Source: Clostridia bacterium (GTDB taxonomy: Bacteria; Bacillota; Clostridia; Christensenellales; Aristaeellaceae). From it: DNA of 32,817 nt. A program made the position numbers and the translations under genes. Where the stretch lies: positions 1 to 32,817 of the forward strand of contig JAFUGS010000005.1 of NCBI GenBank assembly GCA_017469265.1. Reading direction: 5' to 3'. Positions 3,197 to 32,580 of this stretch are shown piece after piece; position 1 is the stretch's first letter, and each line of letters starts with the position of its first letter. The notes below the pieces were generated by a model that was not told where the DNA came from, ran no database searches, and saw only the letters and a program-made list of their open reading frames with translations.

Positions 3197-3225
3197 ATTA
3201 TAGGCTTGTGGTTTCCTTCTGTCAA
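3197..3225 (-). promoter_or_regulatory. Consensus sigma-A promoter of xylB-nrdR with overlapping palindrome
   Basis: On the minus strand TTGACA (3225-3220), a 17-bp spacer and TATAAT (3202-3197) form a perfect consensus promoter. Predicted start is near 3190, about 43 nt before the xylB ATG. The -35 box sits inside an inverted repeat TTCCTT-GACAG-AAGGAA, a plausible repressor operator. Confidence 0.88.
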
Positions 3226-3249: not shown

Positions 3250-4233
3250 TCACGGCGCCGGCCGCCAGGCGTCATTTCCCCGCAGAACCCTGTCCGGCGT
3301 CAGCGCCGCGGCCTCCTCCCTCGTCAGCCTTTTCTCCATCGGATGCCGCGTGCGCAGATCCGCCCGGGCCCCGGTTGTGGCCCATTCGCCGCAGCGGCCT
3401 TCCTGCAGTTTCCGGGTTTCATCCCAGTCCGTGAAGCCCTCCGGCGCCACGCAGGCTTCCATCTCGCATTCCAGAAAGAAGGTTCCCGCGTATTCCCGCC
3501 ACGGGCGCCCCAGGTACGCCCGGCCCTCCCCGCAGCTGCCCGTCAGCCGGCAGCGATGGAAAATCAGCCCGTATGGCTGCTCCTGATGGGTGTTCGCGGC
3601 GGTGTACCACCCGCCCCGCTCGTTCACGAACAGCGTACAGCCTTCAAACCAGCAGGTATAATTGCCGAAGATGAAGTCCACATCTCCTTCAATATAGCAG
3701 TCCGCAAAGTACTGCCGGCTGGTAGTCAGCGGGCCGTCCTGCACCCGGGGATGCTGCTCCGCGCTTCCGGTTCTGGGCGCGATTTCCGCCACCACGTCCG
3801 GAATCCGAAGGGGACCGCAGTATAGCGTATCCTGGTGCGCGATGAACCGGCACCCGCGCCAGATGCCCCGGTCTCCGGCCGCGTACACCGCCACGGCCTG
3901 CCCCACAACCCGGCCATCCCCCGCGTCATTGCGGATGGTCAGGTTTTCGACGGTTACGTCCCGCCCGGTCACCATGAACGTCGCGGAAAGGAAGGTGGTC
4001 TTTTCCGTCCCGTCCGGATGGAGATCCTTCGCGCATCCCCGGCCCGTCAGGATCGTTTCCATGACGTCTTCCCCCACGATGCGCAGATTGTCCTTATGCG
4101 CCACGACCCGCTCCTCGTAGATGCCCTTCCGGATTCGGACCGTCACCGCTTCCGGCCGCTCCGCGGCCGCGTCAATCGCTTCCTGCAGGCTGGTAAAATC
4201 CCCGCTTCCGTCCTTCGCCACAGTATATTCCAT
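3250..4233 (-). CDS. Pectin methylesterase (pectinesterase, CE8)
   Basis: A 327-residue right-handed beta-helix enzyme that removes methyl esters from galacturonate residues of pectin, releasing methanol. Family signatures are VAKDGSGDFTSLQEAID at the N-terminus, GQAVAVYAAGDRG (Q112 site), HQDTLY (Q134, D135), DVDFIFG (D186) and LGRPW (R243, W245). These correspond to the catalytic Gln, two Asp, Arg and Trp of CE8 enzymes. There is no signal peptide, so it probably acts in the cytoplasm on short imported methylated oligogalacturonides, which fits the sugar transporters upstream. The ATG at 4233 has a GGGAG site about 10 nt before it. The gene ends 24 bp before the xylB -35 box. Confidence 0.92.
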   Translation of the reverse strand: MEYTVAKDGSGDFTSLQEAIDAAAERPEAVTVRIRKGIYEERVVAHKDNLRIVGEDVMETILTGRGCAKDLHPDGTEKTTFLSATFMVTGRDVTVENLTIRNDAGDGRVVGQAVAVYAAGDRGIWRGCRFIAHQDTLYCGPLRIPDVVAEIAPRTGSAEQHPRVQDGPLTTSRQYFADCYIEGDVDFIFGNYTCWFEGCTLFVNERGGWYTAANTHQEQPYGLIFHRCRLTGSCGEGRAYLGRPWREYAGTFFLECEMEACVAPEGFTDWDETRKLQEGRCGEWATTGARADLRTRHPMEKRLTREEAAALTPDRVLRGNDAWRPAP

Positions 4234-4328: not shown

Positions 4329-4356
4329 AAAAAAGGATCGCTCCGAAGAGCGATCC
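4329..4356 (-). terminator. Rho-independent terminator of the 446-aa solute-binding protein gene
   Basis: On the minus strand GGATCGCTC (4356-4348), a TTCG tetraloop, GAGCGATCC (4343-4335), then six T (4334-4329). The stem is a perfect 9 bp. It starts 17 bp after the stop codon. Confidence 0.95.
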
Positions 4357-4373
4357 CGAAAAAGGCTGGAAAA

Positions 4374-5714
4374 TTATTTGCCGTTGAAGGTGTCGCACAG
4401 CGCCTGCCAGGCGGGCATGCCGGCTTCAATCAGCTCAGCGGGAGTCGCGCCGCCCAGGGCCCACAGCAGGCTGTTGCCCAGCACGTCGTTCTGGGTGCCC
4501 AGATAGGTCACATTGTTCACGCGGCAATGCTCGGGCTCACGCAGCATGGCGTAGGTTTCGTCCACAGCGCGCTCGTCGGTGTAGTTGTACTTGTTGCCGA
4601 TCCAGCTGTCCTCGTCATCATAGCCGGGGGTCGGGTTGGACCACAGGTCATAGATGAAGGTCAGCTTCGCCACGGTCTCCTCGTCGTAGCAGGCGGGGAT
4701 CATGGTGATGTTGTCGCTGATAACGGTGATGTAGGGATCGCCTTCGTTCGGCACGGGGAACGCGACGCAGCCCCACTCGTCAGCCATGTCAGCCATTTCG
4801 GAGTTGTCGTTGAATCCGCCATAGGTCTGATACATATAGAAGCCGCAGTAGCCCTGCTTCCAGGCATCCTTGTACCAGTCCCAGTTGGCGCCGTCGGGAG
4901 TGGGCGCCCAGTACTTCGCCTGGATCTCCTTGCCCCAGGTCAGCGCGTTGATGGTCGCGTCGCTGTTCATCGCGGGATAGATCTGGCCGTTCTCGTCGAA
5001 GTCGAAGAAGCAGCCGCCATTGGCGAAGGTGGCGCAGACATACATGTCGTCGCCGGAGCCGATCAGACCGTAGATATCGGTCACGCCGTCGTTATCGGTG
5101 TCGCGGGTGATGGTCTTCAGCATGTCTTCAAACATCGCCCAGGTCCAGGTGCCGTTGGCCTGCGCGTCATAGATGGTGTTGTAGTCGATACCGGCTTCTT
5201 CCAGGACGCGCTTGTTGAAGTACAGGCAGCCGCGGGGCTCAGAGTTGCCGGCATACAGGCCGTACAGCTTGCCGCCCACGGTCATGAACTGCTTCTCCGC
5301 CTCGTTCCACTTTTCGTTGTTCAGATCGATGTACTTGTCATTGATCGGGGCGGCGATGCCGTTGGCCACCAGGGAGCCGACCTTGCCGGGCTCGATGATG
5401 TAGATCCGCAGGGTATCATCGGGCGTCTGGGTGAAGTTGATCATCTGCTCTGCGCAGGTGCCCCAGTCGCCGTCCTGCAGCTGATAAACATCCACGTTGT
5501 AGGTCTCGTTGATCCAGTCACGATAGTCGTACTGTGCCTGCTGTTCCTCCGTGGGTTCAGCGACACGGTCCCGGGAGCCGGTCCAGTAGTCGGCCACCCA
5601 AACGGAAGCGCCGCCGAAGTCGATGCCTTCGACCACCGCGGGATACTCAGCCAGCGCGCTGCAGCAGGCCGTCAGCATCATCGCAGCCAGAACCAGAGCC
5701 ATGATTTTCTTCAT
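4374..5714 (-). CDS. Extracellular solute-binding protein of a CUT1 sugar ABC transporter
   Basis: A 446-residue exported sugar-binding protein. The N-terminus MKKIMALVLAAMMLTACCSALAE is a signal peptide. LTAC could be a lipobox with lipidation on C17, while SALA/E could be a signal peptidase I site, so the mode of anchoring is uncertain. The mature protein has family-1 features: WVADYWTGSRDR near the start, a DTDNDGVTD acidic calcium-loop-like motif in the middle, and aromatic-rich stretches near the C-terminus (ANWDWYKDAWKQ, MYQTYGGF) typical of oligosaccharide-binding clefts. A strong AGGAGG lies 9 nt before the ATG. It follows a second permease pair (5918-7953), its likely partner, but has its own promoter, which would allow excess binding protein over permease. 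The exact sugar is unknown; neighbours suggest pectin-derived sugars. Confidence 0.9.
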   Translation of the reverse strand: MKKIMALVLAAMMLTACCSALAEYPAVVEGIDFGGASVWVADYWTGSRDRVAEPTEEQQAQYDYRDWINETYNVDVYQLQDGDWGTCAEQMINFTQTPDDTLRIYIIEPGKVGSLVANGIAAPINDKYIDLNNEKWNEAEKQFMTVGGKLYGLYAGNSEPRGCLYFNKRVLEEAGIDYNTIYDAQANGTWTWAMFEDMLKTITRDTDNDGVTDIYGLIGSGDDMYVCATFANGGCFFDFDENGQIYPAMNSDATINALTWGKEIQAKYWAPTPDGANWDWYKDAWKQGYCGFYMYQTYGGFNDNSEMADMADEWGCVAFPVPNEGDPYITVISDNITMIPACYDEETVAKLTFIYDLWSNPTPGYDDEDSWIGNKYNYTDERAVDETYAMLREPEHCRVNNVTYLGTQNDVLGNSLLWALGGATPAELIEAGMPAWQALCDTFNGK

Positions 5715-5806: not shown

Positions 5807-5835
5807 ATTTTATCACTTTCACTCGCTGTTGTAAA
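5807..5835 (-). promoter_or_regulatory. Promoter of the 446-aa solute-binding protein gene
   Basis: On the minus strand TTTACA (5835-5830), a 17-bp spacer and TAAAAT (5812-5807). The sequence TGAAAGTGATAAAA across the -10 box loosely resembles a cre site for CcpA (two mismatches at key positions), so carbon control is possible but unproven. No strong terminator lies between this promoter and the permease operon stop at 5918, so read-through is possible. Confidence 0.75.
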
Positions 5836-5917: not shown

Positions 5918-7045
5918 TTATTCCTTGGACCCGGACATGGCCAGGCTTTCCGTGAAGGTGCGCTGCGTAAAGATGTACAGGATGATCAGCGGAACGGAGC
6001 AGATCAGCACGGCGATCGAGATCAGCTGCTGCTGGCGGCCATTCGGCACCACCACCGCCACGGAGGCGTCGGCGGAAAAATACCGGGCCATTCGGGTCAC
6101 CATCGAGGACATCTGGCTGGAATATACGGAGTAGGAAGTGGAAGGAATAAACAGGCGGGTATAGAAGATATCCGTCCATTGCCAGACAAAGCTGAACAGG
6201 AAGCAGCTGGCGATGGTGGGCAGCGCGTCCGGCAGCATGATCTTGACGAAGGTATGCAGGGTTCCGCACCCGTCCACATAGGCCGCCTCCTCCAGGCTGG
6301 TGGGAATGCCCTGGAAGTACTGCCGCATAATGTAAATGTACAGCCCGTTTTTCAGCCCCATGCAGGTCAGGGACATCAGCATGTAGGCGGAAATATTCGA
6401 GCGCAGGTTAATCGTCTTGCCGGTGATCAGCGCGATCAGCCCCGTACCGGTGCCATCCACCACGCTCAGCAGGCGCTGCCCGAAGCTCAGGCCTTCCGCG
6501 TTCACGCCGAAGAGCGTGAAAATCCGCAGCACGTCGAAATTCGCGAAGTTCATATACAGCGCGGACTGAATGGTCTGCGGCGGGATGATGATCAGCGCCA
6601 CCACACACCCGAACCAGAATTTCTTCAGCGGAAACTCATACCGCGCGAAGCCATAGGCGACCAGCGTCGTGGATACGATGGTTCCCAGGGAGATCACCAG
6701 GGAAATCCAGAACGTGTTCAGCAGCGCGTTGAAGGTCCATCCCCCGCCGATATTCTTCAGGTCCGTCAGCTCCGCCACGATGCGGTAATTATCCAGCGTA
6801 ACGTTTCTGGGCAGCAGGATGATGGTGGAGTCATACAGATCCTTCTCCTGCATCAGGCCCATGGAGAATCGGGTCAGCAGGGGCTGAATGATCATGAAGC
6901 ACAGCCCGAACAGCAGAAGTCCCCGGATCACGGAAACGGCAATCTGCCCGGCGCGTCTCCGGAGCAGGTAACCGCCGCTGCGCCGGTTGCGGTCCCAGAA
7001 GTTCTTGTTTTCGCCCACAAAAACCGTATTGCTCTTCTTACTCAT
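5918..7045 (-). CDS. Carbohydrate ABC transporter permease (MalG-type, with long insert)
   Basis: A 375-residue inner-membrane permease of the CUT1 sugar transporter family. The cytoplasmic coupling helix (EAA loop) is visible as EEAAYVDGCGTLHTFVKIMLPDALP, here quoted in part: EEAAYVDGCG then IMLPDALP. It is about 90 residues longer than usual MalG-type permeases. Extra sequence occurs at the N-terminus (residues 1-33, basic) and as an insert in the middle (approximately residues 160-205, including NAEGLSFGQRLLSV and GTGTGLIALITGK) between membrane segments. The ATG overlaps the stop of the partner permease as ATGA (7042-7045), so the two are translationally coupled. It is the last gene of the eight-gene operon that begins at 17859. 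Confidence 0.88.
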   Translation of the reverse strand: MSKKSNTVFVGENKNFWDRNRRSGGYLLRRRAGQIAVSVIRGLLLFGLCFMIIQPLLTRFSMGLMQEKDLYDSTIILLPRNVTLDNYRIVAELTDLKNIGGGWTFNALLNTFWISLVISLGTIVSTTLVAYGFARYEFPLKKFWFGCVVALIIIPPQTIQSALYMNFANFDVLRIFTLFGVNAEGLSFGQRLLSVVDGTGTGLIALITGKTINLRSNISAYMLMSLTCMGLKNGLYIYIMRQYFQGIPTSLEEAAYVDGCGTLHTFVKIMLPDALPTIASCFLFSFVWQWTDIFYTRLFIPSTSYSVYSSQMSSMVTRMARYFSADASVAVVVPNGRQQQLISIAVLICSVPLIILYIFTQRTFTESLAMSGSKE

Positions 7046-7953
7046 TGCGCAGATTTCACCGCCCTTGAGATGATAAAGGAACTGATGAGGATGAAGGCCA
7101 GCGCGATGGCGAAATAAATCCAGCTCATGGCGGAGGCGATTCCAAACTTGAAGTCCTTATACATCACTTCATAGATTCTTTCCATGACCCTGTTATCGTT
7201 TTTCGTGAAGAAATCGATAATGGTATAGATGGTGTTTACCAGCAGCAGGGGGCTGACCATCGGGAAGGTGATCTTCCAGAAGGATTCCCAGGCCGTGCAG
7301 CCTTCCACGTCCGCCGCCTCATACAGGGAGGGGGATATGGCCTGCAGCCCCGTCAGGAAGATGATAATCTGGATGCCGCTGGCCATGACAATGTCGTAGA
7401 TCGCGTCGATCATCTGAAAGACCACCGCGAAGACGCCGCTGCCCACGCCGGAGACGGAAAGCAGGTTCTGCAGGGAGGCGGAAATGTTCACGCCAGCCGC
7501 GCCTTCCACCGATTCCGCGACGCCGGCCATCATGTCATAGAATTCGTTCTGACTCTCGATGCCGGGCAGCACGCCGGAGGCCAGAATCACCGGCAGGAAG
7601 AAGATCGCCCGGCACAGCGTCCGCCCCTTAAAGTCCTGGTTCAGGATCACGGCGATCACAAAGCTGAGCACCAGGGTGGCGATGGTGTTGATCACCATCC
7701 GGCCGATCTCGTCAATCAGGTACTGATTGTAATAGGGGTCCACGGCCCAGGCCTGCCGGTAATTGTCGATCCCAAGCCAGGACATGGTAAACCCGGAACC
7801 GGGAACAATCGTCACGTCGTTGAAGGACATGATCAGGGACTGCAGCATGGGCTTTGCCATGAAAAGGATAAAACCGATGATAAAGGGAAGGATAAACAGA
7901 TAACCTGTCTTGGCCCGGCGTCTGGCCATGGTGACCGGCTTCTTTTTGCTCAT
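7042..7953 (-). CDS. Sugar ABC transporter permease (MalF-type, with insert)
   Basis: A 303-residue CUT1 permease. The N-terminal segment ARRRAKTGYLFILPFIIGF is a typical first membrane helix, and the EAA loop reads YEAADVEGCTAWESFWKITFP. An unusual Gly/Ser/Ala-rich insert (about residues 135-175, GVAESVEGAAGVNISASLQN and following) lies before the loop, at a place comparable to the insert in the downstream partner. I chose ATG 7953 because a GGGGGAG ribosome-binding site lies 6-7 nt upstream and it forms an ATGA overlap with the DUF5696 gene stop (7950-7953). Longer readings of this frame to 8280 only overlap the upstream gene. No ATPase gene is nearby; a shared MsmX-like ATPase is expected elsewhere. 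Confidence 0.88.
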   Translation of the reverse strand: MSKKKPVTMARRRAKTGYLFILPFIIGFILFMAKPMLQSLIMSFNDVTIVPGSGFTMSWLGIDNYRQAWAVDPYYNQYLIDEIGRMVINTIATLVLSFVIAVILNQDFKGRTLCRAIFFLPVILASGVLPGIESQNEFYDMMAGVAESVEGAAGVNISASLQNLLSVSGVGSGVFAVVFQMIDAIYDIVMASGIQIIIFLTGLQAISPSLYEAADVEGCTAWESFWKITFPMVSPLLLVNTIYTIIDFFTKNDNRVMERIYEVMYKDFKFGIASAMSWIYFAIALAFILISSFIISRAVKSAQ

Positions 7954-10526
7954 TCCTGACTCCCCCTTTCCACCACATAGTCCCGGGCGGGAATCTGAAC
8001 GCCGCCGGCCCTGTAGTCTTCGCTGCCGTAGTTCACATAGACCGCCGTGCCGTCGGCGTAAACGGTCTTCGTAACCTCCTCCGCCAGCCGGACATGGTCC
8101 GTGATCCGCACCTGGTTCAGCCCCCGCATCTCCCGCTGATACCGCTGGATCATCGGGATCACCTGATCCTTCCAGTAAGCGTAGCCGGAGGAGGTATAGC
8201 AGCTGTAGGTCGAATCCTGCAATACGCGGGTATCCGCAGCCATGAAGGTGAAGTTCAGCCCCGCGCCGTACTCCGCGCACTCCAGCAGCATGGTCTGATA
8301 GTCCCCGGAAAGGTTGATCGCTTCCCCGGTATAGTCTTTCATGCCGTGCAGCGCGATCTGATAGAACGGGATCCGCTCGTCGATAATCGCGTAAGCCTGC
8401 CCCGTCAGGTTCATGTCCGTAATCAGATCCGCGTACGGGACAGCGTAGTCATTTCCTTCCTTGATGGTAACCTTCAGGCCGTTTTCCGCCGCTTCCCGCA
8501 TGGTTTCCAGATGCATCTGCTTCACCTGCTCACGGGTGAAAAGATCCTTCGGATAGTAGTCCGCGCTCAGCAGGCTTCCGATATCCCGGAAGGCGATTCC
8601 GGCGGCGCTCCTGCTCTTCAGCGCGCTGATCAGGTTGGACGCGTTCTTTTTCGCGTACAGCGGGCGGGTCAGATAGTAGTCATCCATCCAGTCCGCGGTC
8701 TGGTAGGTCACGATATCATAGGGATAGAGGTGAATCTGTTCCCGTGTGGCGTACCGGGCGGCATCCCGGAAAGCCAGGAATCCGTCGAACAGGCCGCTGT
8801 GGTAGGCAAAGCAGGTAACACCGTCCAGCGAAAGGCTGACATTCCGCGCTTTGGCGGTCTCGATCAGCGTTTTCAGCTTCCCGTCCCCGCCAAGCTCGCC
8901 CAGGGTGCGCACCTTCGTCAGCACCTTCTGCCGCACGCCGCCGTTGCTCCATCCGGTCATCCGGATGTTCAGGTTCCGGATGTCCTGGTCGGAAAGCTCC
9001 TCCACGATCGCGGCGGCCTGGTCAAAGGTCGTCGTGGCCACCACGCTGTCCACGGGAATGCCGAACTTGACCACGTTCTTGTTGATGGCGCCGATCAGCT
9101 CCACATGGACGGGCATTTCCTCGCTGGCCAGGCTTTCCGCCAGCTCCGGATGATTCGCCCGCAGGTAATCGCCGTAAGCGTTGGCTAGATCCGCGTAACG
9201 GGTGCTGTCAATAAAGCGGTACCGCTGCCGGATCGTGTCCTGGGGGATGTGCTTTTCATAGATATACACCAGCTGCGCCGTCTTGGCCGAAACATTGTAC
9301 TGCTCCGCGTGCAGCACATTGTATTTCGCGTAGACGGTGTTATAGCTGTTGTACCGGCCGGAAATATCCGCGTTCACGCCGCCGTAGGAGCTGGCGCCTT
9401 CCAAGATGCAGAGGAAGGATCCGCCGTCATGGGTTCCGCCGAACACCGGATAGGCGTTCCGGGTCTCACTGACCGCTTCCTTCCGCTGCACGGCGTAATC
9501 CCAGCCGTACAGGTTGGCGTAATACGGGCTCTGGCTCAGTTTTCCGTTGTTGTACTCGATGATCGCTCCGCCGCCCTCGGGAATAAAGTGATACCCTTCC
9601 TCCTCCAGGCCGGCCGCGCCGAACATGGGCAGCGGGCTCAGGTAGGTGATGGGATATTCCGCCTTATACCGGATCTCCTCGTAGGGGATTTCCACGAGGA
9701 GATCCTCCCCGTCCAGGCGGTAAATCATGCTGATGTTGAACACCGGGCCGGAATTGGTTTTCGTGTTGACCGCCAGCGCCTGGTCGATCTCGTAATCCTC
9801 CTGGGTATATCCGGCTTCCTCAAAGTACTGCTCGATCTTTCCCTTGTTGTTGGTGCTGGTATCGGACTTCAGGATATACAGCGCCTGCTCCGTGATGCTC
9901 GGATAGTTTTCAATCAGCTCGTCCTTGTCCGCCCGCTTATCCAGCTTCTCCGGCTCGATCAGCGTGTAATTGGAGGCCAGCTTTTTCTTGGTGGATTTGG
10001 ACATCCGGTCCGTAATCTCCGTATATCTGTCTTTGGTGATGGCGGTCGGGATCAGGAAGATCCGCTCGATCTGGCCCACGGCGTAATCCACCCGGATGGT
10101 CTGGTCATCCGGCTTCTGAATGTCGTAGGTCTGATTCTGGATGGAATAGGTATAATTGTTCATGGACACCTCACCGCCGGAGGTGGTGTAGGTGACGATG
10201 AGGGTGGAGCCCAGGGTATCCCTGTTCAGGGACAGGGCCACCTTGTCCTGCGCCGCGTCCGCCGGGTTGGATGTCCACACCCGCCCGGTTTCCTTCTCCG
10301 TCAGGGTGAACTGGGTCGTGGCGGGATCCATCACAAAAGCGAGATGCTCGTTTTCCAGCGTCAGATTCAGGCCGGAATCCTCAAAGTAGGAAATGGTCGG
10401 CGGATCAATGACTTCTTCCTCCTGCGGTCCGTACAGCGGAATGCCCACGAAGATCACCAGCGCCGCGATCAGCGCCGCCGCGATGATCCAGGGAATCAGC
10501 CGCCGGAGAAGGGATTTCTTTCTCAT
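7950..10526 (-). CDS. Membrane-anchored DUF5696 protein, probable TIM-barrel glycosidase-like
   Basis: An 858-residue protein with one N-terminal membrane helix (residues 10-30) and a large extracytoplasmic part. Residues 45-460 look like beta-rich domains (NLTLENEHLAFVMDPATTQF, EGGGAIIEYNNGK). Residues about 470-790 have the alternating pattern of a TIM barrel, with charged residues at predicted strand ends: NIRMTGWSNGG near 520, GIAFRDIGS with D648, VTIKEGNDYA with E690. The last ~50 residues (VYADGTAVYVNYGSEDY, GVQIPARDY) resemble the small C-terminal beta domain of some glycoside hydrolases. I recognise it as DUF5696-like from memory of such clusters; enzymatic activity is inference. AGGAGG lies 8 nt before the ATG. 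It sits between a Yip1 gene (16-nt gap) and a permease (ATGA overlap). Confidence 0.75.
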   Translation of the reverse strand: MRKKSLLRRLIPWIIAAALIAALVIFVGIPLYGPQEEEVIDPPTISYFEDSGLNLTLENEHLAFVMDPATTQFTLTEKETGRVWTSNPADAAQDKVALSLNRDTLGSTLIVTYTTSGGEVSMNNYTYSIQNQTYDIQKPDDQTIRVDYAVGQIERIFLIPTAITKDRYTEITDRMSKSTKKKLASNYTLIEPEKLDKRADKDELIENYPSITEQALYILKSDTSTNNKGKIEQYFEEAGYTQEDYEIDQALAVNTKTNSGPVFNISMIYRLDGEDLLVEIPYEEIRYKAEYPITYLSPLPMFGAAGLEEEGYHFIPEGGGAIIEYNNGKLSQSPYYANLYGWDYAVQRKEAVSETRNAYPVFGGTHDGGSFLCILEGASSYGGVNADISGRYNSYNTVYAKYNVLHAEQYNVSAKTAQLVYIYEKHIPQDTIRQRYRFIDSTRYADLANAYGDYLRANHPELAESLASEEMPVHVELIGAINKNVVKFGIPVDSVVATTTFDQAAAIVEELSDQDIRNLNIRMTGWSNGGVRQKVLTKVRTLGELGGDGKLKTLIETAKARNVSLSLDGVTCFAYHSGLFDGFLAFRDAARYATREQIHLYPYDIVTYQTADWMDDYYLTRPLYAKKNASNLISALKSRSAAGIAFRDIGSLLSADYYPKDLFTREQVKQMHLETMREAAENGLKVTIKEGNDYAVPYADLITDMNLTGQAYAIIDERIPFYQIALHGMKDYTGEAINLSGDYQTMLLECAEYGAGLNFTFMAADTRVLQDSTYSCYTSSGYAYWKDQVIPMIQRYQREMRGLNQVRITDHVRLAEEVTKTVYADGTAVYVNYGSEDYRAGGVQIPARDYVVERGSQE

Positions 10527-10542
10527 CTTTTCATCCTCCTCC

Positions 10543-11247
10543 CTAGTTCAGCCGGAAAACAATTTCCCGGTACATGCTGATAAAGTAGCTGGCCGCGTCG
10601 CTCAGCAGGCTGAAGAAGGTCAGCAGCAGGAAAATGATCACCAGCGCGCCGATCACCGTTACAAAGAGGAAAATGATGGTCTTGCCCGGGCCGTAATCAT
10701 GGACTTCCATCAGTCCGGTGAACACCAGGAAAACGCACCAGATGATGCTGAAGGTCATCAGCACCTGGTAAAAGCTTCCTTCCTCATAGGTCAGGATATT
10801 GCTCATCAGGATCAGCGGCAGCTGGATCAGGATGTAGGGAACCAGCGCGTAGCACATGGCCATGTAAATATCCCGGAACCGGCCCTTCCCGTCGAACAGG
10901 GTCGTCATGGCCCAGTTCGCCAGGCACAGGATGATGAAGGGAAACGCCAGGGAGCCCATCTGTTCAAAAACGTTGATGTACTGAATGGGCACATTGATGA
11001 ACTGGAAGCTGGTCAGCATCAGCTTCAGCACCCTGGTGATCAGGAACAGGAGCAGAAACGTATGGGCCGCGGCCATGGTTCCGCGCTTTTCATGGATCAG
11101 ATCCCAGAAGCCGTCGAAGGGATGCGTAATCACATGCAGCCCGTACCGCAGGGAACGGAAATAGCGTTCTCTGGCGGCCTTCCGTTTTTCAGCCTTCAGG
11201 GCCTGATCCGCGGCGGTCGGATTACTTATGGATTTTCCGAAGCTCAT
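10543..11247 (-). CDS. Yip1-family multi-pass membrane protein
   Basis: A 234-residue protein with a basic cytosolic N-terminus (about 55 residues, Lys/Arg-rich, SNPTAADQALKAEKRKAARE) followed by about five membrane helices. The pattern YGLHVITHPFDGFWDLIHEKRG before the first helix and the ALVPYILIQLPL segment are typical of Yip1 domain (PF04893) proteins in Firmicutes. Function in bacteria is unknown. The start ATG 11247 overlaps the end of the NHL gene by 26 nt; it is preferred because GGAGG lies 9 nt upstream. Its constant position between NHL and DUF5696 genes suggests it helps assemble or anchor the surface complex; this is inference. Confidence 0.8.
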   Translation of the reverse strand: MSFGKSISNPTAADQALKAEKRKAARERYFRSLRYGLHVITHPFDGFWDLIHEKRGTMAAAHTFLLLFLITRVLKLMLTSFQFINVPIQYINVFEQMGSLAFPFIILCLANWAMTTLFDGKGRFRDIYMAMCYALVPYILIQLPLILMSNILTYEEGSFYQVLMTFSIIWCVFLVFTGLMEVHDYGPGKTIIFLFVTVIGALVIIFLLLTFFSLLSDAASYFISMYREIVFRLN

Positions 11248-12745
11248 GCGCCGTCACCTCCCCTTTCATTTTTTTCACCCTGCCCACGCACAGCGGCACG
11301 ATCAGCAGCACCGCGACCAGCAGCAGGATCCACCAGATATTGCCCTCAACCCATTCCTTCCGGTACAGCTTGAACGCCCGGCCGTAGTTCTCCCGGTCGT
11401 GAGCCAGCTTGAAGTAGTCCATCGCCTCTTCATACCGGTCCTGCCGCAGCACGGCCCGGCCGATGCCACGGAAGGCCAGCGGATAGTTGGCGTTCATCTT
11501 CATGACGTTCCGCCACAGGTCCGCGCTCTCCTCATACTTGCCGTCCAGATAGGTTTCCGTCGCGTCATAGATGGTCTGCCCGTACTCCGTGGTCTGGAAA
11601 ACCGTGATGCTGTTCTCCAGCTGGTCCAGCACCAGCAGGTCATATCCCATATGCTCCAGGCTGACCGCGCCGGTAAAGGCGCCCTCCACATTGCCCTTCG
11701 TGCCGAAGGCCCACAGCAGGACGCCCTGACTGTCATAGCCGAAGAGCCGTCCGCGCGTGCGGTCCAGCGCCACGTAGATGTCATTTTGCATGACCGTGAT
11801 GTCCACAAATTTGCTGGGGCCGCTCGCCTCCGCTCCCTGCTCCACCCAGAACAGGTCCCCGATGGGCGGGAAGCGGTCGTTCTTGATCAGGATGTCCGAG
11901 CCGAGGCTGTTCAGCCGGCGGATGGGCTTCGCGTTGTCGTACTTCAGGTCGTACTCGCTGAAGACGATGTTGGTGGCGTAGATGAAGCCTTCCGGATCAA
12001 TATAGATGTTCTCGTATTCCGTCGGCACGAAGCTTTCCGTCTGGGCCCGCTGCTCCTTCGTCTGGAAATACCGTTTCCAGATGTACTCGCCCATGGAGAT
12101 GGACACGGTGTTGGCGCCGATAAAGCCGGAGAAGGTGCCGTCCGCCTCGTACTTGACCAGGCCCTTGTTCACGTTCTGGCACAGGGCGTACACCCGGCCC
12201 GCCACGTCCACCACGATTTTTTTCGGCAGGAAATTCAGGCTCTGGTCAAAGGTGGCGTCCGCCGGCTTGGTGTAATCCCGAATCCATTTCAGGTTTTTGT
12301 CCATCATGGCCACGCGCTGGTTGCCGTAATCCGCCACGTAAATATTGTAATCCGGATCCACGAAAACATCGTACGGTGTGGAGAAGGTGTTCACCCGCGA
12401 ACCCGTCATCTCCTTAATCACGCGTCTCAGCGAGAAGGCGTTCCCCTTCCGCTCGATCTCCAGGATCCGGTGATTGTTCGTGTCGCAGACGTAGATGAAC
12501 TGATCGCGCACGTACAGGCTCTGGGCCTTGTTGATCCGGACATTCTCCAGCTTCTCCAGCCCCAGGGTCATGCTGTCAATCACCGTGGCGACCCGGTAGG
12601 CGTCGGGCGACTCCTGCACATCCTCCCAGTAATCGTAGGTGTAGGTATAGGAAGTGCTGAAGCCATCCTCCGCCTGCGCGGCCGCCAGGATGAAAACCAT
12701 GATGAGGCAGCACAGCAGCGCGCCCGCCCTCTTGGTGATGTTCAC
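11222..12745 (-). CDS. Secreted, membrane-anchored NHL-repeat beta-propeller protein with TPR-like segment
   Basis: A 507-residue protein. It has an N-terminal signal peptide (MNITKRAGALLCCLIMVFILAAAQA) and one C-terminal membrane helix (about 467-490, WWILLLVAVLLIVPLCV) with a basic cytosolic tail. Between them, residues 70-390 carry NHL-type blades: IYVCDTNNHRILEIER, NIYVADYGNQRVAMMD, GFIYATNIVFSEYDL and similar. Residues about 400-450 (YLDGKYEESADLWRNVMKM, LRQDRYEEAMDYFKLAHD) look like two TPR helix pairs. The propeller therefore faces outside and is likely a binding or scaffold part. The start is GTG 12745, with AAAGGAGGG 9 nt upstream. The family is known in clusters with Yip1 and DUF5696 proteins, but I know of no assigned function. 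Confidence 0.82.
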   Translation of the reverse strand: MNITKRAGALLCCLIMVFILAAAQAEDGFSTSYTYTYDYWEDVQESPDAYRVATVIDSMTLGLEKLENVRINKAQSLYVRDQFIYVCDTNNHRILEIERKGNAFSLRRVIKEMTGSRVNTFSTPYDVFVDPDYNIYVADYGNQRVAMMDKNLKWIRDYTKPADATFDQSLNFLPKKIVVDVAGRVYALCQNVNKGLVKYEADGTFSGFIGANTVSISMGEYIWKRYFQTKEQRAQTESFVPTEYENIYIDPEGFIYATNIVFSEYDLKYDNAKPIRRLNSLGSDILIKNDRFPPIGDLFWVEQGAEASGPSKFVDITVMQNDIYVALDRTRGRLFGYDSQGVLLWAFGTKGNVEGAFTGAVSLEHMGYDLLVLDQLENSITVFQTTEYGQTIYDATETYLDGKYEESADLWRNVMKMNANYPLAFRGIGRAVLRQDRYEEAMDYFKLAHDRENYGRAFKLYRKEWVEGNIWWILLLVAVLLIVPLCVGRVKKMKGEVTAHELRKIHK

Positions 12746-12775
12746 TCGGATTTCCCTCCTTTCTGCGTTCCCGTC

Positions 12776-14002
12776 TCAGTCCTTGATGCCGGAGGATGCC
12801 ATGGTTTCCAGAATCCGGCTCTGGCTGAAGACGAAAACCAGGATCGGGACCGCGACGATGATGACGTTGGCCGCGGCCACCTGGCCCGTGCGGGCGATGC
12901 CGCCGGCCTGGATCTGCTGCAGCGCGTAGACCATGGTCTTTTTCGCCTCGGAGTAGATGACCGTGGCGGCGCTGGTGTTCCACAGGCTCTGGACGCTGAA
13001 GATGATCATCGTCAGCCAGGCGGGCTTCACGTTGGGCATCACAATGCTCCAGAAAATCCGGAAGCGTCCGGCGCCGTCGATGGTTGCCGCCTCAATCAGC
13101 GCGGTGGGCAGCCCTTCCATGAACTGCTTCATCAGGAACAGCCCGATGGGAGCCGCGAAGGCCGGCAGGATCAGGGCCCAGTAGGTGTCGATCATCCCCA
13201 GGCGGCTCATGATCAGGTAGTTCGGGATGCCGGTCACGTATCCGGAGAACATCAGGCAGGTGGTTACCACGCCGAAGAACAGCTTCCCGCCGGGAAAATC
13301 GTATTTCGCCAGGACGAAGGCCGCCATGCTGGCGATGACCAGGTGGCCGAAGGTGCCGACCGCCGTGATCAGCACCGTGTTGATCAGGTACCGGCTGAAG
13401 GGCACCCAGCTCTGCCCCATGGTGACAAACAGGTCGGAGAAGTTGTCCGTCGTGGGATGCTGGGGCCACACGGGCGGCGGAAAGCGGAACAGCTCGTCCA
13501 GGGGCTTCAGGGAGGATCCCACCAGGAACAGCAGCGGGAACACCATCAGGAAGCCCACGATAAACAGCATGAGGTAGATCCCGATATCCCCGGCGATGGA
13601 ACGGTTCGGATGCCGGCGGGTGATCAGATGCTTCTTTGGCACCTGGATTTTCTCCCCCCGCAGCTCCGCCAGCCGCCGGAGCTCGTCGCCCCGGGTTTTG
13701 GGCGTCACCGGCTTATCCGCCCAGTGGCTGTCCATGAAGCTGTACAGCTTCAGCCCGTGATCCAGTTCGAACACGTACCGGCTGTCGTCTTTCAGAATCA
13801 CCGTCAGCTGGGTGGAGGTGCCGCCCCTGCGGATGCTGTCCATCCGGTGCAGCCTGGCGTAATGCCACTGCACCATGGGCTCCTGCTTCCCCTTCTGGCA
13901 GAAGGCGGCGCCCTGTTCGTCCGCGGTCAGGGTTCCCCTGAATTTTTTACCGTCGATCAGCCGGAGGGTACCGGTGGACCGGACATTGTTCACTTCGCTC
14001 AT
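12776..14002 (-). CDS. Carbohydrate ABC transporter permease (MalG-type) fused to an N-terminal PH-like domain
   Basis: A 408-residue protein. The C-terminal ~275 residues are a CUT1 permease, with first helix IYLMLFIVGFLMVFPLLFLV, then FRFPPPVWPQHPTTDNF and the EAA loop IEAATIDGAGRFRIFWSIVMP. The N-terminal ~95 residues are unusual: a beta-rich stretch (GTLRLIDGKKFRGTLTADEQ, MVQWHYARLHRMDSIRR, TQLTVILKDDSRYVFELDHG) ending in the helix LKLYSFMDSHW. This has the look of a small PH/GRAM-like domain, followed by a basic linker. As a MalG N-terminus is cytosolic, the added domain should be inside the cell. ATG 14002 lies 1 nt after the stop of the partner permease; a GTG at 14011 is an alternative start. 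Confidence 0.85.
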   Translation of the reverse strand: MSEVNNVRSTGTLRLIDGKKFRGTLTADEQGAAFCQKGKQEPMVQWHYARLHRMDSIRRGGTSTQLTVILKDDSRYVFELDHGLKLYSFMDSHWADKPVTPKTRGDELRRLAELRGEKIQVPKKHLITRRHPNRSIAGDIGIYLMLFIVGFLMVFPLLFLVGSSLKPLDELFRFPPPVWPQHPTTDNFSDLFVTMGQSWVPFSRYLINTVLITAVGTFGHLVIASMAAFVLAKYDFPGGKLFFGVVTTCLMFSGYVTGIPNYLIMSRLGMIDTYWALILPAFAAPIGLFLMKQFMEGLPTALIEAATIDGAGRFRIFWSIVMPNVKPAWLTMIIFSVQSLWNTSAATVIYSEAKKTMVYALQQIQAGGIARTGQVAAANVIIVAVPILVFVFSQSRILETMASSGIKD

Positions 14003-14003
14003 G

Positions 14004-14951
14004 TCACGCACCTACCCTTCCCAGCAGCGCGCTGATCGCTTTCTTGCACAGAATCATCACCACGAAAAGGATCGTCGCGATGGCGCTGGCGTAGCCCATC
14101 TCAAACCGGCTGAAGCCATAGTCAAACAGGTGGGTTACCACCGTGCGCGCGGCGTAGTCCGTGGAGGGATAGCCGCACAGCGCCCGCGGCACATCGCTGA
14201 CGTTGAAGGCGGAGGTGATGCTCATCACCGCGCCGAAAAGCAGCATGGGCTTCATGCTGGGCAGGGTGATGTGGTACAGCTCCTGCCAGCGGTTGCGAAC
14301 CCCGTCCACATACCCGGCCTCATACATGCTCTTGTCAATTCCCTGGAAGCCGGCCACGAAGCTCAGGAAGCCCGTGCCCATGCTCATCCACAGAATAACG
14401 ATCACCAGGATGGTCATCATATAGTTGGGATCCGTCAGCCAGAGCCGCGGCGCCTCGATCAGGCCAAACTCCATCAGGATGGAATTGAACCAGCCGTAGG
14501 CGTCGCCCCGGAAGATGATGGAGAAAACCGTGAAGGCCGCGCCAGCGATGGAGGGGGCGTAGAAGACCACCACCGCCACCGCCCGCAGCCACTTGGGCAG
14601 CTCATTGATGAACCACGCGAACAGGAAGGAAAGGATATATCCCACCGGCCCGGTGATCACGGCGATGACGAAGGTGTTTTTGATGGCCGTCAGGAACACC
14701 TCATCCTGCAGGATCAGGTTGACATAGTTCTGGAGCCCGATAAAGCGGGCCGGTTCCAGAATGTTGTAATAGGTGAAGCTGTAGAAGATCGACGTGGCGA
14801 TGGGCAGAATGAAAAAGGTGAAGAACAGGATGGCGTACGGGGCCAGGAACAGGTAGCAGCCTTTGTTCTTTTTCGCCTGCAGCAGTCCGTGGCGGAACTT
14901 TTCCCGCTGCATGTCAAGGTATCTGGATGTAAATGACTGGGTTTTCTGCAT
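14004..14951 (-). CDS. Sugar ABC transporter permease (MalF-type)
   Basis: A 315-residue CUT1 permease. The first helix reads YLFLAPYAILFFTFFILP, and the EAA loop is YEAGYVDGVRNRWQELYHIT followed by LPSMKPML. Six membrane segments are expected. The ATG at 14951 was chosen because AGGAGG lies 9 nt upstream; a longer frame to 15026 would run into the upstream gene. It lies 25 bp after the giant solute-binding protein gene and pairs with the PH-fused permease directly downstream. No ATPase is encoded nearby. Confidence 0.9.
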   Translation of the reverse strand: MQKTQSFTSRYLDMQREKFRHGLLQAKKNKGCYLFLAPYAILFFTFFILPIATSIFYSFTYYNILEPARFIGLQNYVNLILQDEVFLTAIKNTFVIAVITGPVGYILSFLFAWFINELPKWLRAVAVVVFYAPSIAGAAFTVFSIIFRGDAYGWFNSILMEFGLIEAPRLWLTDPNYMMTILVIVILWMSMGTGFLSFVAGFQGIDKSMYEAGYVDGVRNRWQELYHITLPSMKPMLLFGAVMSITSAFNVSDVPRALCGYPSTDYAARTVVTHLFDYGFSRFEMGYASAIATILFVVMILCKKAISALLGRVGA

Positions 14952-14976
14952 TGCTTCATTCCTCCTTTCCCGTTCC

Positions 14977-17859
14977 TCAGTCCAGCGGCAGGTTGAATTC
15001 CCGCCGTTTGATACGGATCTCCTCATTGATGGTCCGCGCGTAGTTCAGCAGCGTTTCCCGCGGGTCCTCCTTGGTGTTGATGACCCGGCGGATGGCGTTG
15101 GTGATATGCCGCGTCGTGGAGTAGCCGCCGGCGATCTCCGGGAAGCCCCGGGTGTGGCTCATCTGCTCCTCCAGAATCTTCAGCTGTACGCTGCTCCAGG
15201 CAAGCTGCCGCAGGGCGTCCCGGTTCGCGGTCTGATACCTGGCGCTGGCCCCCAGCACGCTCTCCATCTCCCGGCCGAAGCGGACCTGCGCGTCCGCGCT
15301 GACCCACCACTTCACAAACTCCCACGCGTTCTGCTTCACGTGTTCGTCCTCCGTGGCGACAATCATGCAGCACAGGCCGTCCGTCTGGGCGGTGCGGTCG
15401 ATGGTGCCGTCGGCCTGCTCCGTGCCCGGGATCAGGGTGAAGTCCCACAGCCCGCGGATTTCCGGTGCGGAAACCATCAGCGTGTTGTAGGTCGCGTAGG
15501 ACGCGATGCCCATGGGCATCTCCCCGCTGCGGAAGCGGCTGACGAAGTCGAACACCGTGGGCAGGCCGTAGTCGTTGTACAGGCTGGTATACTGCTTGAA
15601 GGCCGCGACCCCCGCCTCGCTGTCGATCAGCGTCCGTTTGGCTTCAGGGTCGTAGATGGCGCCGCCGTTCTGGTAGATCATGGAATCCAGCACGGAAATA
15701 TCCGCCAGCGCGATGTCCGGGAAGGGCAGCGCCACCGTCAGGCTGTTTCCCTGGATGGTCGGCAGCTCGGCGATCAGCTCCTCCCAGGTGTTGGGAATCG
15801 TCAGCCCCAGCTCCTCCATGATGTCCGTCCGGTAGAAGAGCAGGTTGAAATTCTGGGTTTCCGGCATGCCGTAGACCCCGACCTTGCTGCCGTTGTCATA
15901 GGTCAGGGGCTGCAGAATGCTGGGATTGAAGGCCTGAATCGCTTCCTCGTATCCCGGGAACTGGGTCATGTCCTCCACCGCGTTGCGCATGGCGTAGTTC
16001 ACGGCGAACCAGCCGCTGACGCTGAGGACGATATCCGGCCCGTTGCCGGCCACCACCGCGGTCAGGATGGCGTCCGCCTGCACCAGCTTGACATTGACCT
16101 TGATCCCCGTCTTCGCGGTGAAGGTGTCGTCCACCATGGTCTTCAGCACGGTGCTCTGGTCGCGGCCGGTGGTTATCCAGATTTCCAGCACGTCGTCCTG
16201 CTCGTCGTACTTGTCGCCCAGGGAGTTATAATCCACGGTAAAGGAGCTGACGCAGCTGCGGATTTCGTGCAGCGCGCTGGAGAAGAAACTGTCATGCACC
16301 TGCGGAATGGCCGCGTTTTCCCCGGTGATCAGGATCAGATCCACGTCCAGCTTGCTCTCGGACATGTTCTGCATGGCCGTGCCCAGGGAGGTGATGTTGT
16401 CCTTGAAATTGGTGAAGGATTCCGTGATCCGGTCATTGTTTTCGACAAACTGCTCCAGCTGAACGGCCAGCGTCTGGGCCACGGCCGCCCGGTCGCTCTT
16501 TTCCCCGGTGATGGCCACGATATCGTCCACGATCTTATACAGCCGCTTGCTTTCCAGATCCATGGCCTGAATGGCTTCGGGATAAACCTTGGCCAGGTTG
16601 TAATCCCGGAAGCGGTCCGGATTCACGCCGGTGAGCACCAGCAGCTTGCGGTAGATCTGGTTCAGGCGGTAGATGCTGTCCTCCACGTCCTTCAGCACGG
16701 TGCCCATCTCCCCCAGCGTCACCTCCATCCGCAGGGTATGCGCGCCTTTGGTAAGGTAGAACCGCAGGGGATTTCCCGCCGCGTCCGAGAGGGTCTTCAT
16801 CTCCCAGCTGGTGTTGTAGAAAAAGGTCACCGTTTCCAGGTCCTCAAAGGGGACTTCCCCGTCGATGTACACCGTCCTGCCGCTGAGGGCGCCGCGCTGA
16901 TACATCTGCCGGGCCTTGATGGTGATATGGTAGTACCCGTCCTCCGGCACCTCAAAATCCCACTGGATCCACTCGCCCGGGTGCGTCCAGGGGTCGCCGC
17001 CGATGTAGTTGAGGATGGTGTTGGTCACGGAATAGGGCTCTGTCCGGGGCGAGCTCCGGTCGTACCGGGCGTACAGGCTGGGGGAAGAGCGAAGCCCGGC
17101 GCTTTCTCCCTGCACGGTCTGGGAATAGTTTTTCCCGGTTTCGCTCATCTCCGCCGCCGGCTGCGCGGCGGTATACGCTTCATAGCTCTGATACTGTTTC
17201 AGCGGCGTCAGTGTCAGCCCCTGCAGGATCATGGGCTCATTCACTGCCCGCAGGGTCAGGGTATTATCTCCCTGCTCAAAGTGGAAGGCATAGGGCTCCG
17301 TCTGGTACCCCATGTCGTCCCGGCAGAAGGCGGTCTGCGGCGCGAAAACCTCCACCTGGCTGGGGCGGATGTCGTTGCCCTGGTTGTCCTGCCGGACCTC
17401 GGACCCGTCCGTCCACAGCCGGCTGAAACAAAGCGTGGAGGCACCGCCGAAGGGAACTTCCCCGTTGATCAGCAGCTCCCGCTCAATATCCACCCCGCGG
17501 CTCTCCGTGGTCAGATAATCCAGCCGGATGTTGTACAGGCCGGCCTGCGGAACCTCCACATGCCAGGTAATCACGGATTCGTCCGGCGTGTAAAGCCCTT
17601 CCGCCCGCGGCTCCCCGTCGCCTTCGAAAGAGAGCAGATCCACCTGTACGCTCTCTTTCACGGCCGGCTCTCCCGCAAAGGACGCCACATAGGCATCGTA
17701 CGTATTGCTGCGTCCGATGCCCGAAACATCCGTGGAAAGATCCACCCCCGCGTACTTGTCGCTGAAGCCGGCCGGCGCCTGGCTGAGCAGCCAGATTCCC
17801 ACGCCCAGCACAGCCACCACCAGGACTCCGATGAGTGCGTTCCGCCATTTCCTTGACAT
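14977..17859 (-). CDS. Giant membrane-anchored solute-binding protein with tandem beta-sandwich domains
   Basis: A 960-residue protein. Counting from this start: one membrane helix near 8-27 (ALIGVLVVAVLGVGIWLL), then two similar extracytoplasmic beta-sandwich domains (about 60-220 and 245-385). Both have a carbohydrate-binding-module look: ITWHVEVPQAGLYNIRLDY with ERELLINGEVPF, then IQWDFEVPEDGYYHITIKAR with RTVYIDGEVPF. A helical spacer spans about 385-550. The C-terminal ~400 residues are a family-1 sugar-binding protein (LEIWITTGRDQS, NGPDIVLSVSGWFAVNYAMR, PETQNFNLLFYRTDIMEELG, NAWEFVKWWVS). ATG 17859 is preferred over GTG 17874, because the GTG overlaps the GGGAG ribosome-binding site 8 nt before the ATG. 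It heads the eight-gene operon and is the likely ligand receptor for the permeases downstream. Confidence 0.88.
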   Translation of the reverse strand: MSRKWRNALIGVLVVAVLGVGIWLLSQAPAGFSDKYAGVDLSTDVSGIGRSNTYDAYVASFAGEPAVKESVQVDLLSFEGDGEPRAEGLYTPDESVITWHVEVPQAGLYNIRLDYLTTESRGVDIERELLINGEVPFGGASTLCFSRLWTDGSEVRQDNQGNDIRPSQVEVFAPQTAFCRDDMGYQTEPYAFHFEQGDNTLTLRAVNEPMILQGLTLTPLKQYQSYEAYTAAQPAAEMSETGKNYSQTVQGESAGLRSSPSLYARYDRSSPRTEPYSVTNTILNYIGGDPWTHPGEWIQWDFEVPEDGYYHITIKARQMYQRGALSGRTVYIDGEVPFEDLETVTFFYNTSWEMKTLSDAAGNPLRFYLTKGAHTLRMEVTLGEMGTVLKDVEDSIYRLNQIYRKLLVLTGVNPDRFRDYNLAKVYPEAIQAMDLESKRLYKIVDDIVAITGEKSDRAAVAQTLAVQLEQFVENNDRITESFTNFKDNITSLGTAMQNMSESKLDVDLILITGENAAIPQVHDSFFSSALHEIRSCVSSFTVDYNSLGDKYDEQDDVLEIWITTGRDQSTVLKTMVDDTFTAKTGIKVNVKLVQADAILTAVVAGNGPDIVLSVSGWFAVNYAMRNAVEDMTQFPGYEEAIQAFNPSILQPLTYDNGSKVGVYGMPETQNFNLLFYRTDIMEELGLTIPNTWEELIAELPTIQGNSLTVALPFPDIALADISVLDSMIYQNGGAIYDPEAKRTLIDSEAGVAAFKQYTSLYNDYGLPTVFDFVSRFRSGEMPMGIASYATYNTLMVSAPEIRGLWDFTLIPGTEQADGTIDRTAQTDGLCCMIVATEDEHVKQNAWEFVKWWVSADAQVRFGREMESVLGASARYQTANRDALRQLAWSSVQLKILEEQMSHTRGFPEIAGGYSTTRHITNAIRRVINTKEDPRETLLNYARTINEEIRIKRREFNLPLD

Positions 17860-17980: not shown

Positions 17981-18009
17981 ATTATACAGAGCGGTCATCG
18001 CCTTGTCAA
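17981..18009 (-). promoter_or_regulatory. Perfect consensus promoter of the eight-gene transport operon
   Basis: On the minus strand TTGACA (18009-18004), a 17-bp spacer and TATAAT (17986-17981). A long A/T tract (AAAAGCTTTTTTTT) just upstream of -35 could act as an UP element. The predicted leader is about 115 nt and contains two TTTTTGTG-like direct repeats but no obvious riboswitch. Confidence 0.9.
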
Positions 18010-18174: not shown

Positions 18175-18207
18175 AAAAAAATCCTTCCCCCGCGCAGGGG
18201 GAAGGAT
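18175..18207 (-). terminator. Rho-independent terminator of pheST
   Basis: On the minus strand an 11-bp perfect stem ATCCTTCCCCC / GGGGGAAGGAT with a 5-nt loop is followed by seven T. It starts 20 bp after the pheT stop. Confidence 0.96.
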
Positions 18208-32551: not shown

Positions 32552-32580
32552 ATTATAACGTCTTAAATCCCACTTGTCAA
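32552..32580 (-). promoter_or_regulatory. Perfect consensus promoter of the glmM operon
   Basis: On the minus strand TTGACA (32580-32575), a 17-bp spacer and TATAAT (32557-32552). It sits 11 bp after the T-tract of the rRNA operon terminator. Confidence 0.92.

Follow-up and report, generated by a model that had tools for sequence, protein, structure and literature searches.

The 32,817-nucleotide stretch analysed here (the window), with 60% GC, is one whole contig, JAFUGS010000005.1, from the assembly of a Clostridia bacterium of the family Aristaeellaceae (GCA_017469265.1), in which 103 contigs make up a Bacillota genome of 2.57 Mb. Its minus strand carries a unit of nine genes, reaching from a promoter at 18009-17981 to a terminator at 4357-4334, which encodes a giant binding protein (SBP), two pairs of permeases, an NHL beta-propeller, a Yip1-family membrane protein, a DUF5696 protein and a second binding protein (SBP2), and which probably forms a membrane-bound module for glycan uptake. 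A first-pass annotation of this DNA had described an eight-gene operon: all eight open reading frames (ORFs) and their families are in place on the minus strand at the coordinates below, but the unit has nine genes, SBP2 having been overlooked. From the upstream border to the end, the features are:

18181..18207, minus strand: terminator-like hairpin 3' of pheT, upstream border of the unit
17981..18009, minus strand: promoter-like site, sigma-70 consensus 12/12, TTGACA-17-TATAAT
14977..17859, minus strand: SBP, 960 amino acids (aa) from the ATG at 17859; hydrophobic segment at the N-terminus, then two CBM35-like domains, a linker and the SBP_bac_1 domain
17173..17727, minus strand: CBM35-like domain 1 of SBP
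16660..17172, minus strand: CBM35-like domain 2 of SBP, homologous to domain 1
14004..15026, minus strand: perm1F, MalF-type permease (BPD_transp_1), ORF of 340 aa
12776..14011, minus strand: perm1G, MalG-type permease (BPD_transp_1)
11222..12745, minus strand: NHL beta-propeller with TPR segment and C-terminal hydrophobic segment
10543..11247, minus strand: Yip1-family membrane protein, 5 hydrophobic segments (PF04893, 5e-16)
7950..10526, minus strand: DUF5696 protein, 858 aa, with N-terminal hydrophobic segment (Pfam DUF5696, 1.4e-184)
7042..7953, minus strand: perm2F, MalF-type permease, 303 aa, starting within the mechanical ORF
5918..7045, minus strand: perm2G, MalG-type permease (BPD_transp_1)
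5807..5835, minus strand: promoter-like site 5' of SBP2, 10/12, TG before the second hexamer
4374..5714, minus strand: SBP2, 446 aa, second binding protein by position and similarity among loci
4334..4357, minus strand: terminator-like hairpin ending the nine-gene unit, 10-pair stem and T run

The head promoter had been called perfect, and its consensus match is indeed complete; promoter-like sites with at most one mismatch number four in the window against 0.03 expected. The compact run of genes was likewise found as described, with intergenic gaps of 30 bp or less and several overlaps from SBP through perm2G, the DUF5696/perm2F junction being an ATGA overlap. SBP2 starts 203 bp after perm2G, with a promoter-like site of its own in front and the terminator-like hairpin behind. 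Of the 30 window proteins scanned, none was recognised as an ABC (ATP-binding cassette) ATPase, in agreement with the first-pass annotation.

Recurrence and gene order

The recurrence of the unit was assessed by searching PF18952 (DUF5696) in 398 sampled Bacillota genomes, with at most three candidates scored per genome, so that multi-copy genomes are undercounted. Any match was obtained in 52 of the 398 genomes, a match above the cut-off in 43 and a strong match in 41 (23 genera), the others being partial or weak. A profile of the NHL family (A7) matched 43 of the same genomes, including all 41 with strong DUF5696, while only two of the 357 genomes without strong DUF5696 match it, G223 (partial) and G335 (weak and partial). 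Fisher's test for this co-occurrence gives p = 6e-54; the genomes are related, which makes the genus count the safer measure. Likewise, a profile of the giant SBP (A8) matched 48 genomes, among them 41/41 DUF5696 genomes (in G097 cut at a contig end); the additional matches are full-length in G098 and G140, partial in G075, and confined to the SBP domain in G007, G050, G087 and G116. G098 and G140, with full-length SBP and no strong DUF5696, point either to gaps in the assemblies or to a reduced version of the system. The distribution is sporadic (41/398 genomes), and in some families a genome holds more than one copy. The first-pass annotation had described such combinations as recurring in Firmicutes, and the neighbourhood search bears this out: DUF5696 and NHL coincide regularly (41/41), and NHL and Yip1 frequently make up a single protein. 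Rare co-occurrence, which that annotation had named as a refutation of its reading, is clearly not what was found.

Gene order was read in two sets of loci. The DUF5696-seeded set comprises 60 stretches of up to 20 kb; they represent 60 of the 63 sites with a strong match beyond the window and come from 40 genomes in 22 other genera. Yip1, or an NHL~Yip1 fusion, lies immediately upstream of DUF5696 in 57/60 of these loci, and perm2F immediately downstream, again in 57/60; the exceptions to the order are contig ends (L051, L053, L088) and ORFs hidden by the gene picker and seen by a simple search (L034, L087). The perm1F-seeded set comprises at least 80 named loci, chosen on perm1F; all counts for this set, and for the 140 loci together, are among the matches listed. 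Here, 70/80 loci reach DUF5696, and 67 of these 70 read SBP-perm1F-perm1G-NHL-Yip1-DUF5696. SBP2 stands directly after perm2G in 56 of the 70 and in 26/60 DUF5696-seeded loci, many stretches ending early. Taken together, the 140 loci show the full nine-gene order in 67 cases and NHL-Yip1-DUF5696-perm2F in 120, many stretches again ending early. NHL-Yip1-DUF5696-perm2F-perm2G is therefore a near-invariant core, and SBP-perm1F/G is a modular partner. Within the core, a fusion of NHL and Yip1 is present in 39/60 DUF5696-seeded loci and separate proteins in 18/60, the fused proteins joining Yip1 to NHL at the C-terminal hydrophobic end of the latter. On the DUF5696 tree (FastTree; some long branches meet) at least five changes between the fused and the separate state are counted.

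These data bear on the possibility that the locus holds nothing but two ordinary CUT1 importers and independent surface glycan binders, which are co-regulated on one transcript owing to a common substrate and physically uncoupled from each other, with Yip1 and NHL serving a separate role in the envelope. Such an arrangement would fit the additional promoter-like site before SBP2, as well as the observation that the core and SBP-perm1F/G can be parted, as in more than half of the DUF5696-seeded loci. However, the direct contiguity of NHL-Yip1-DUF5696-perm2F, in this order, across 40 genomes of 22 other genera, the NHL~Yip1 fusion, the ATGA overlap with perm2F in the window, and the 41/41 co-occurrence argue against it, and co-regulation without coupling is considered unlikely.

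The hosts of the perm1F-seeded loci are mostly rumen or gut Clostridia, represented by metagenome-assembled genomes (MAGs), and Lachnospiraceae (including Butyrivibrio and Roseburia), with one Epulonipiscium; 8/80 loci (L162-L164, L166-L170) lie on contigs with spirochaetal titles (Treponema/Spirochaetaceae). In the DUF5696 tree (quick method, midpoint root), the five spirochaetal rows used fall in two places among Bacillota, which suggests that the module moved between phyla; most loci are from MAGs, so misbinned contigs are possible.

Protein families of the unit

The 960-aa binding protein announced by the first-pass annotation is present and matches Pfam SBP_bac_1 at 2.3e-24. Its two added N-terminal domains are related to one another (hhalign probability 99.8); in profile comparisons, the best match of domain 2 in the PDB is 5x7g (1.3e-9), and domain 1 matches 2w47 and 2w1w (1e-4), chains that carry CBM35. 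Pfam CBM_35 itself matches SBP at 0.005 only, below its cut-off. The protein had been described as anchored, which its single N-terminal hydrophobic segment makes likely, but no lipobox was recognised by eye. SBP2 gave no Pfam match and is possibly a lipoprotein, judged by eye; related proteins occupy the equivalent place in many relatives. At one locus of the same genus (L177), SBP2 lies on the strand opposite the rest of the unit, which the other same-genus loci read do not share. At another locus, L160, SBP2 is followed by a biotin-lipoyl-like protein (12843-13553), possibly an exporter adaptor, whose cluster spans five loci.

The DUF5696 protein, too, is likely anchored in the membrane via its single N-terminal hydrophobic segment; by eye, no lipobox was found. 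A profile of 23 rows was compared with the PDB and aligned to DagB (5opq) at 7e-18, with positions 35-472 matching residues 25-437, i.e., the N-terminal sandwich and into the barrel (domain borders of DagB from PMC5698469). A second stretch (617-674) aligned weakly, at 5.2 bits, to the C-terminal Ig-like domain of 5opq, and a profile of the C-terminal half did not recover DagB. The barrel also aligned to NagBb (5e-8). By these profile alignments, DUF5696 is a distant relative of the GH129/DagB glycosidases. Assignment as a plain GH129 enzyme was rejected: none of the 23 members matches PF11308 (GH129) at E-values up to 1, in a scan that listed 16 families, and the position of the NagBb nucleophile is not conserved. 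A PF11308 search of 149 genomes gave no match, controls included, and is uninformative. Classification of DagB as GH167 was dropped as well, GH167 being described as GH42-like.

In NagBb, we take D330 to be the catalytic nucleophile, and two residues replaced by alanine in the 5wzq chain, H320 and D322, to be putative metal ligands. The column aligned to D330, R532 in the window protein, is not conserved among the 23 rows (D in 1/23, E in 4/23), nor are those aligned to H320 and D322 (H in 0/23, D in 0/23). The trimming role that the first-pass annotation had given to DUF5696 finds no support as stated, since neither the nucleophile position nor those of the two putative metal ligands are conserved. 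Acidic residues are conserved at other positions (n = 23): D/E317 in 21 rows, D343 in 20, D656 in 20, D716 in 19 (plus one E), and E752 in 21. D656, which precedes a conserved Arg, is a candidate for the equivalent of NagBb D435/DagB D486, in a region where the alignment is below significance. DagB keeps one of the two catalytic residues of NagBb (D435 = DagB D486), lacks the nucleophile, and is active nonetheless (PMC5698469), so that DUF5696 could still act with another set of residues; it may serve as a glycan receptor or be an enzyme whose active centre differs. No mention of DUF5696 was found in the literature searches.

The NHL protein matches Pfam NHL and, weakly, TPR, and both the propeller and the TPR segment were also recovered by profile. 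The profile of the Yip1 protein found no credible relative of solved structure. A Yip1 protein of known context is YknW, which modulates the assembly of the YknXYZ transporter (PMC4887032); a term search of the available part of PMC4452783 returned nothing on NHL or Yip1. One may ask whether NHL-Yip1 is rather a sensor, in which the propeller binds glycan outside the cell and Yip1 signals to gate the permeases or their expression. The propeller of the sensor PknD (1rwi, 2.7e-30) is among the many PDB propellers matched by the NHL profile, and one cluster of neighbouring proteins, spanning 28 loci, has an AraC regulator as its representative. However, family scans of NHL and Yip1 gave no output domain, such as a kinase or a helix-turn-helix (HTH), and there is no regulator within the unit, which makes a sensor role improbable.

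Four permeases had been counted in the first-pass annotation, and all four indeed match BPD_transp_1 above the cut-off. EAA loops were detected by motif search in perm1F, perm1G and perm2G, and by eye in perm2F (EAADVEG). perm1F probably starts at its second Met (~14951), giving 315 aa; most of its relatives measure ~295-325 aa. perm1G has a lineage-specific N-terminal extension of ~110-130 aa (window 13650-14011), which is weakly PH-like in nine sequences (the window, L091-L096, L100 and L101) and consists of two hydrophobic segments instead in eight relatives (L098, L099, L102, L104-L108); by comparison of these sequences, it is a swapped domain on an ABC permease. A firmer assignment as PH domain was rejected, as PF08567 matched at 0.0055, below cut-off, and there was no PDB support. 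Genome-wide, 83 BPD_transp_1 matches of all kinds stand against four OB_MalK matches, all four outside the unit. A precedent for a shared ATPase is MsmX, which serves YtcQP-YteP in B. subtilis (PMC5730181).

A putative capture-and-import module

The reading that we favour, with a probability of roughly 0.58, is that the nine genes encode a membrane-bound module for glycan capture and import, built from an NHL-Yip1 scaffold, two CUT1 channels and a shared ATPase. The CBM35 domains and the DUF5696 barrel, perhaps together with the propeller, would hold or present a complex oligosaccharide, while NHL-Yip1 might act as a scaffold, retaining the extracellular parts close to the permeases, by analogy to YknW with YknXYZ. 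SBP would then supply perm1F/G, SBP2 would supply perm2F/G, and an MsmX/MalK-type ATPase encoded elsewhere could power both pairs. NHL-Yip1 and DUF5696 may work primarily with pair 2, which is proposed as their main partner because the NHL-Yip1-DUF5696-perm2F/G core is invariant. Physical coupling of the proteins is inferred from fusion and synteny. Glycan handling as such, already put forward in the first-pass annotation, is supported by the two sugar-type permease pairs, the CBM35-like tandem, the GH129-like barrel, and neighbouring carbohydrate-active enzymes (CAZymes) at loci elsewhere.

Several points weigh against this reading. NHL propellers can bind many ligands. NCBIfam models of sugar permeases (best of the UgpA/UgpE/GlcT type) matched below their cut-offs only, and none of the four MalK-type ATPases is singled out as serving the unit. 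SBP-perm1F-perm1G lies directly upstream of the core in only 27-28/60 DUF5696-seeded loci, the remaining loci having it after perm2G or out of view. Moreover, conserved CAZyme neighbours were not seen in the genus of the window, where the downstream genes, considered without a family scan, vary; the case for carbohydrate use in that genus is therefore made by the proteins themselves.

In SusC/SusD polysaccharide utilisation loci, glycan capture is coupled to a channel. The present unit resembles them in this idea, whereas no family match to SusC/SusD was obtained among the 30 window proteins scanned, and the unit occurs in Bacillota and on contigs titled as spirochaetes. A bolder extension, tentative and rather doubtful at present, is that the same principle operates outside Bacteroidota: the NHL-Yip1 scaffold would join two CUT1 importers, a pseudo-glycosidase receptor of GH129 fold and the CBM35-bearing SBP in one complex, in which large branched glycans are held, threaded and split between two channels, with one borrowed ATPase.

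Other described systems resemble parts of the unit. The YtcQP-YteP/MsmX CUT1 loci (PMC5730181) also combine MalF/MalG-type permeases with EAA loops and a binding protein and lack an ATPase of their own, whereas here two permease pairs and a 960-aa SBP with a CBM35-like tandem are found together with NHL, Yip1 and DUF5696. The four-component transporter YknWXYZ of Bacillus (PMC4887032) likewise pairs a Yip1-family membrane protein with components of an ABC transporter, but is a MacAB-related exporter, while the unit here has permeases of the sugar-import type, and its Yip1 family often forms one chain with the NHL propeller. The GH129 enzyme NagBb (PMC8106489) and DagB (PMC5698469) resemble DUF5696 in a profile alignment that runs through the beta-sandwich and into the TIM barrel, with a weaker match to the C-terminal Ig-like domain; DUF5696 differs in its N-terminal hydrophobic segment, its linkage to transporter genes, and the lack of conservation at the D330 and H320/D322 positions. 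What is known, then, is the class of ATPase-less CUT1-type glycan loci, and what is new is a variant with three conserved partners of unknown role. From titles and abstract openings, literature searches recognised no description of an NHL-Yip1-DUF5696-importer combination. Its significance lies in tying DUF5696, bacterial Yip1 and this type of NHL protein to each other and to sugar-type ABC import; the linkage spans gut, rumen and other Bacillota as well as Treponema-titled contigs, so that the function of these families becomes directly testable. If true, the capture-and-import reading would give glycan-using bacteria a capture-coupled importer.

Neighbouring genes and substrate

The surroundings of the unit were compared in 20 further stretches: 14 orthologous loci of the same genus, four divergent same-genus copies, and two from the order. 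pheT lies upstream, as in the window, in 8/14 orthologous loci (L181-L188) and was not found in the other six (L175-L180) within the 0.5-1.05 kb available upstream; xylB and nrdR follow within ~5.5 kb downstream, as in the window, in 3/14 (L176, L177, L183). A fixed chromosomal place between pheT and xylB-nrdR was rejected on these counts, and the xylulokinase gene was set aside as a substrate clue, its occurrence with nrdR in 3/14 same-genus loci marking it as local background. These comparisons also concern a housekeeping role in the envelope, by which the module would recycle or handle the cell's own surface glycan and not a food glycan. In its favour, the unit was not seen within a CAZyme cluster in the genus of the window and stands beside pheT in 8/14 loci. 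However, its place in the genus is not fixed, pheT being absent from the upstream sequence available in 6/14, and the sporadic distribution, multi-copy genomes, spirochaetal occurrences and varied CAZyme neighbours fit nutrient use better, so that little probability is given to a housekeeping function.

Downstream of the unit, past the terminator-like hairpin at 4357-4334, lies a pectinesterase gene (3250-4233), perhaps a recent insertion. tblastn (1e-5) found no match to it in 160 relative stretches (the 20 of genus and order plus L031-L170). A pectin substrate was rejected, as a gene beyond the terminator and without a match in relatives gives no clue to the substrate.

In more distant relatives, 96 neighbouring proteins from 39 loci were scanned, counted as member matches without deduplication or a random-neighbour control. 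Among the matches listed (25 of 122 families) are GH10 (four), GH3, LacI and AraC-type HTH_18 (three each), and, with two each, GH42, GH26, GH31, GH130, GH43, GH28, apiosidase, alginate lyase, alpha-fucosidase and alpha-galactosidase. A neighbour cluster of 44 loci with a GH43 representative was rejected as a count, since it was built by single linkage and is probably chained, GH43 being found in 2/96 neighbours. Such varied neighbours fit lineage-specific complex glycans better than one fixed substrate, and the substrate probably differs between lineages. A loose lead comes from loci of the genus g130: L071, for example, has the order SBP-perm1F-perm1G-NHL~Yip1-DUF5696-perm2F-perm2G-SBP2, with a GH43 protein next (type scanned in L076). 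In C. bescii, Athe_0085-87 is described as a 'putative oligosaccharide ABC transporter' without an assigned substrate (PMC8579813), and the exoproteome shows Athe_0089 to be xylan-specific (PMC5865380); judging from gene order, Athe_0085-87/Athe_0089 are possibly part of the module seen in the g130 loci.

Two further 12/12 sigma-70 matches lie on the minus strand of the window, at 3197-3225 (overlapping the start of the xylB ORF) and at 32552-32580. Long ORFs also run antisense to the operon on the plus strand, at 11228-14035 (935 aa) and 14863-17856 (997 aa), and are taken as by-products of coding sequence at 60% GC.

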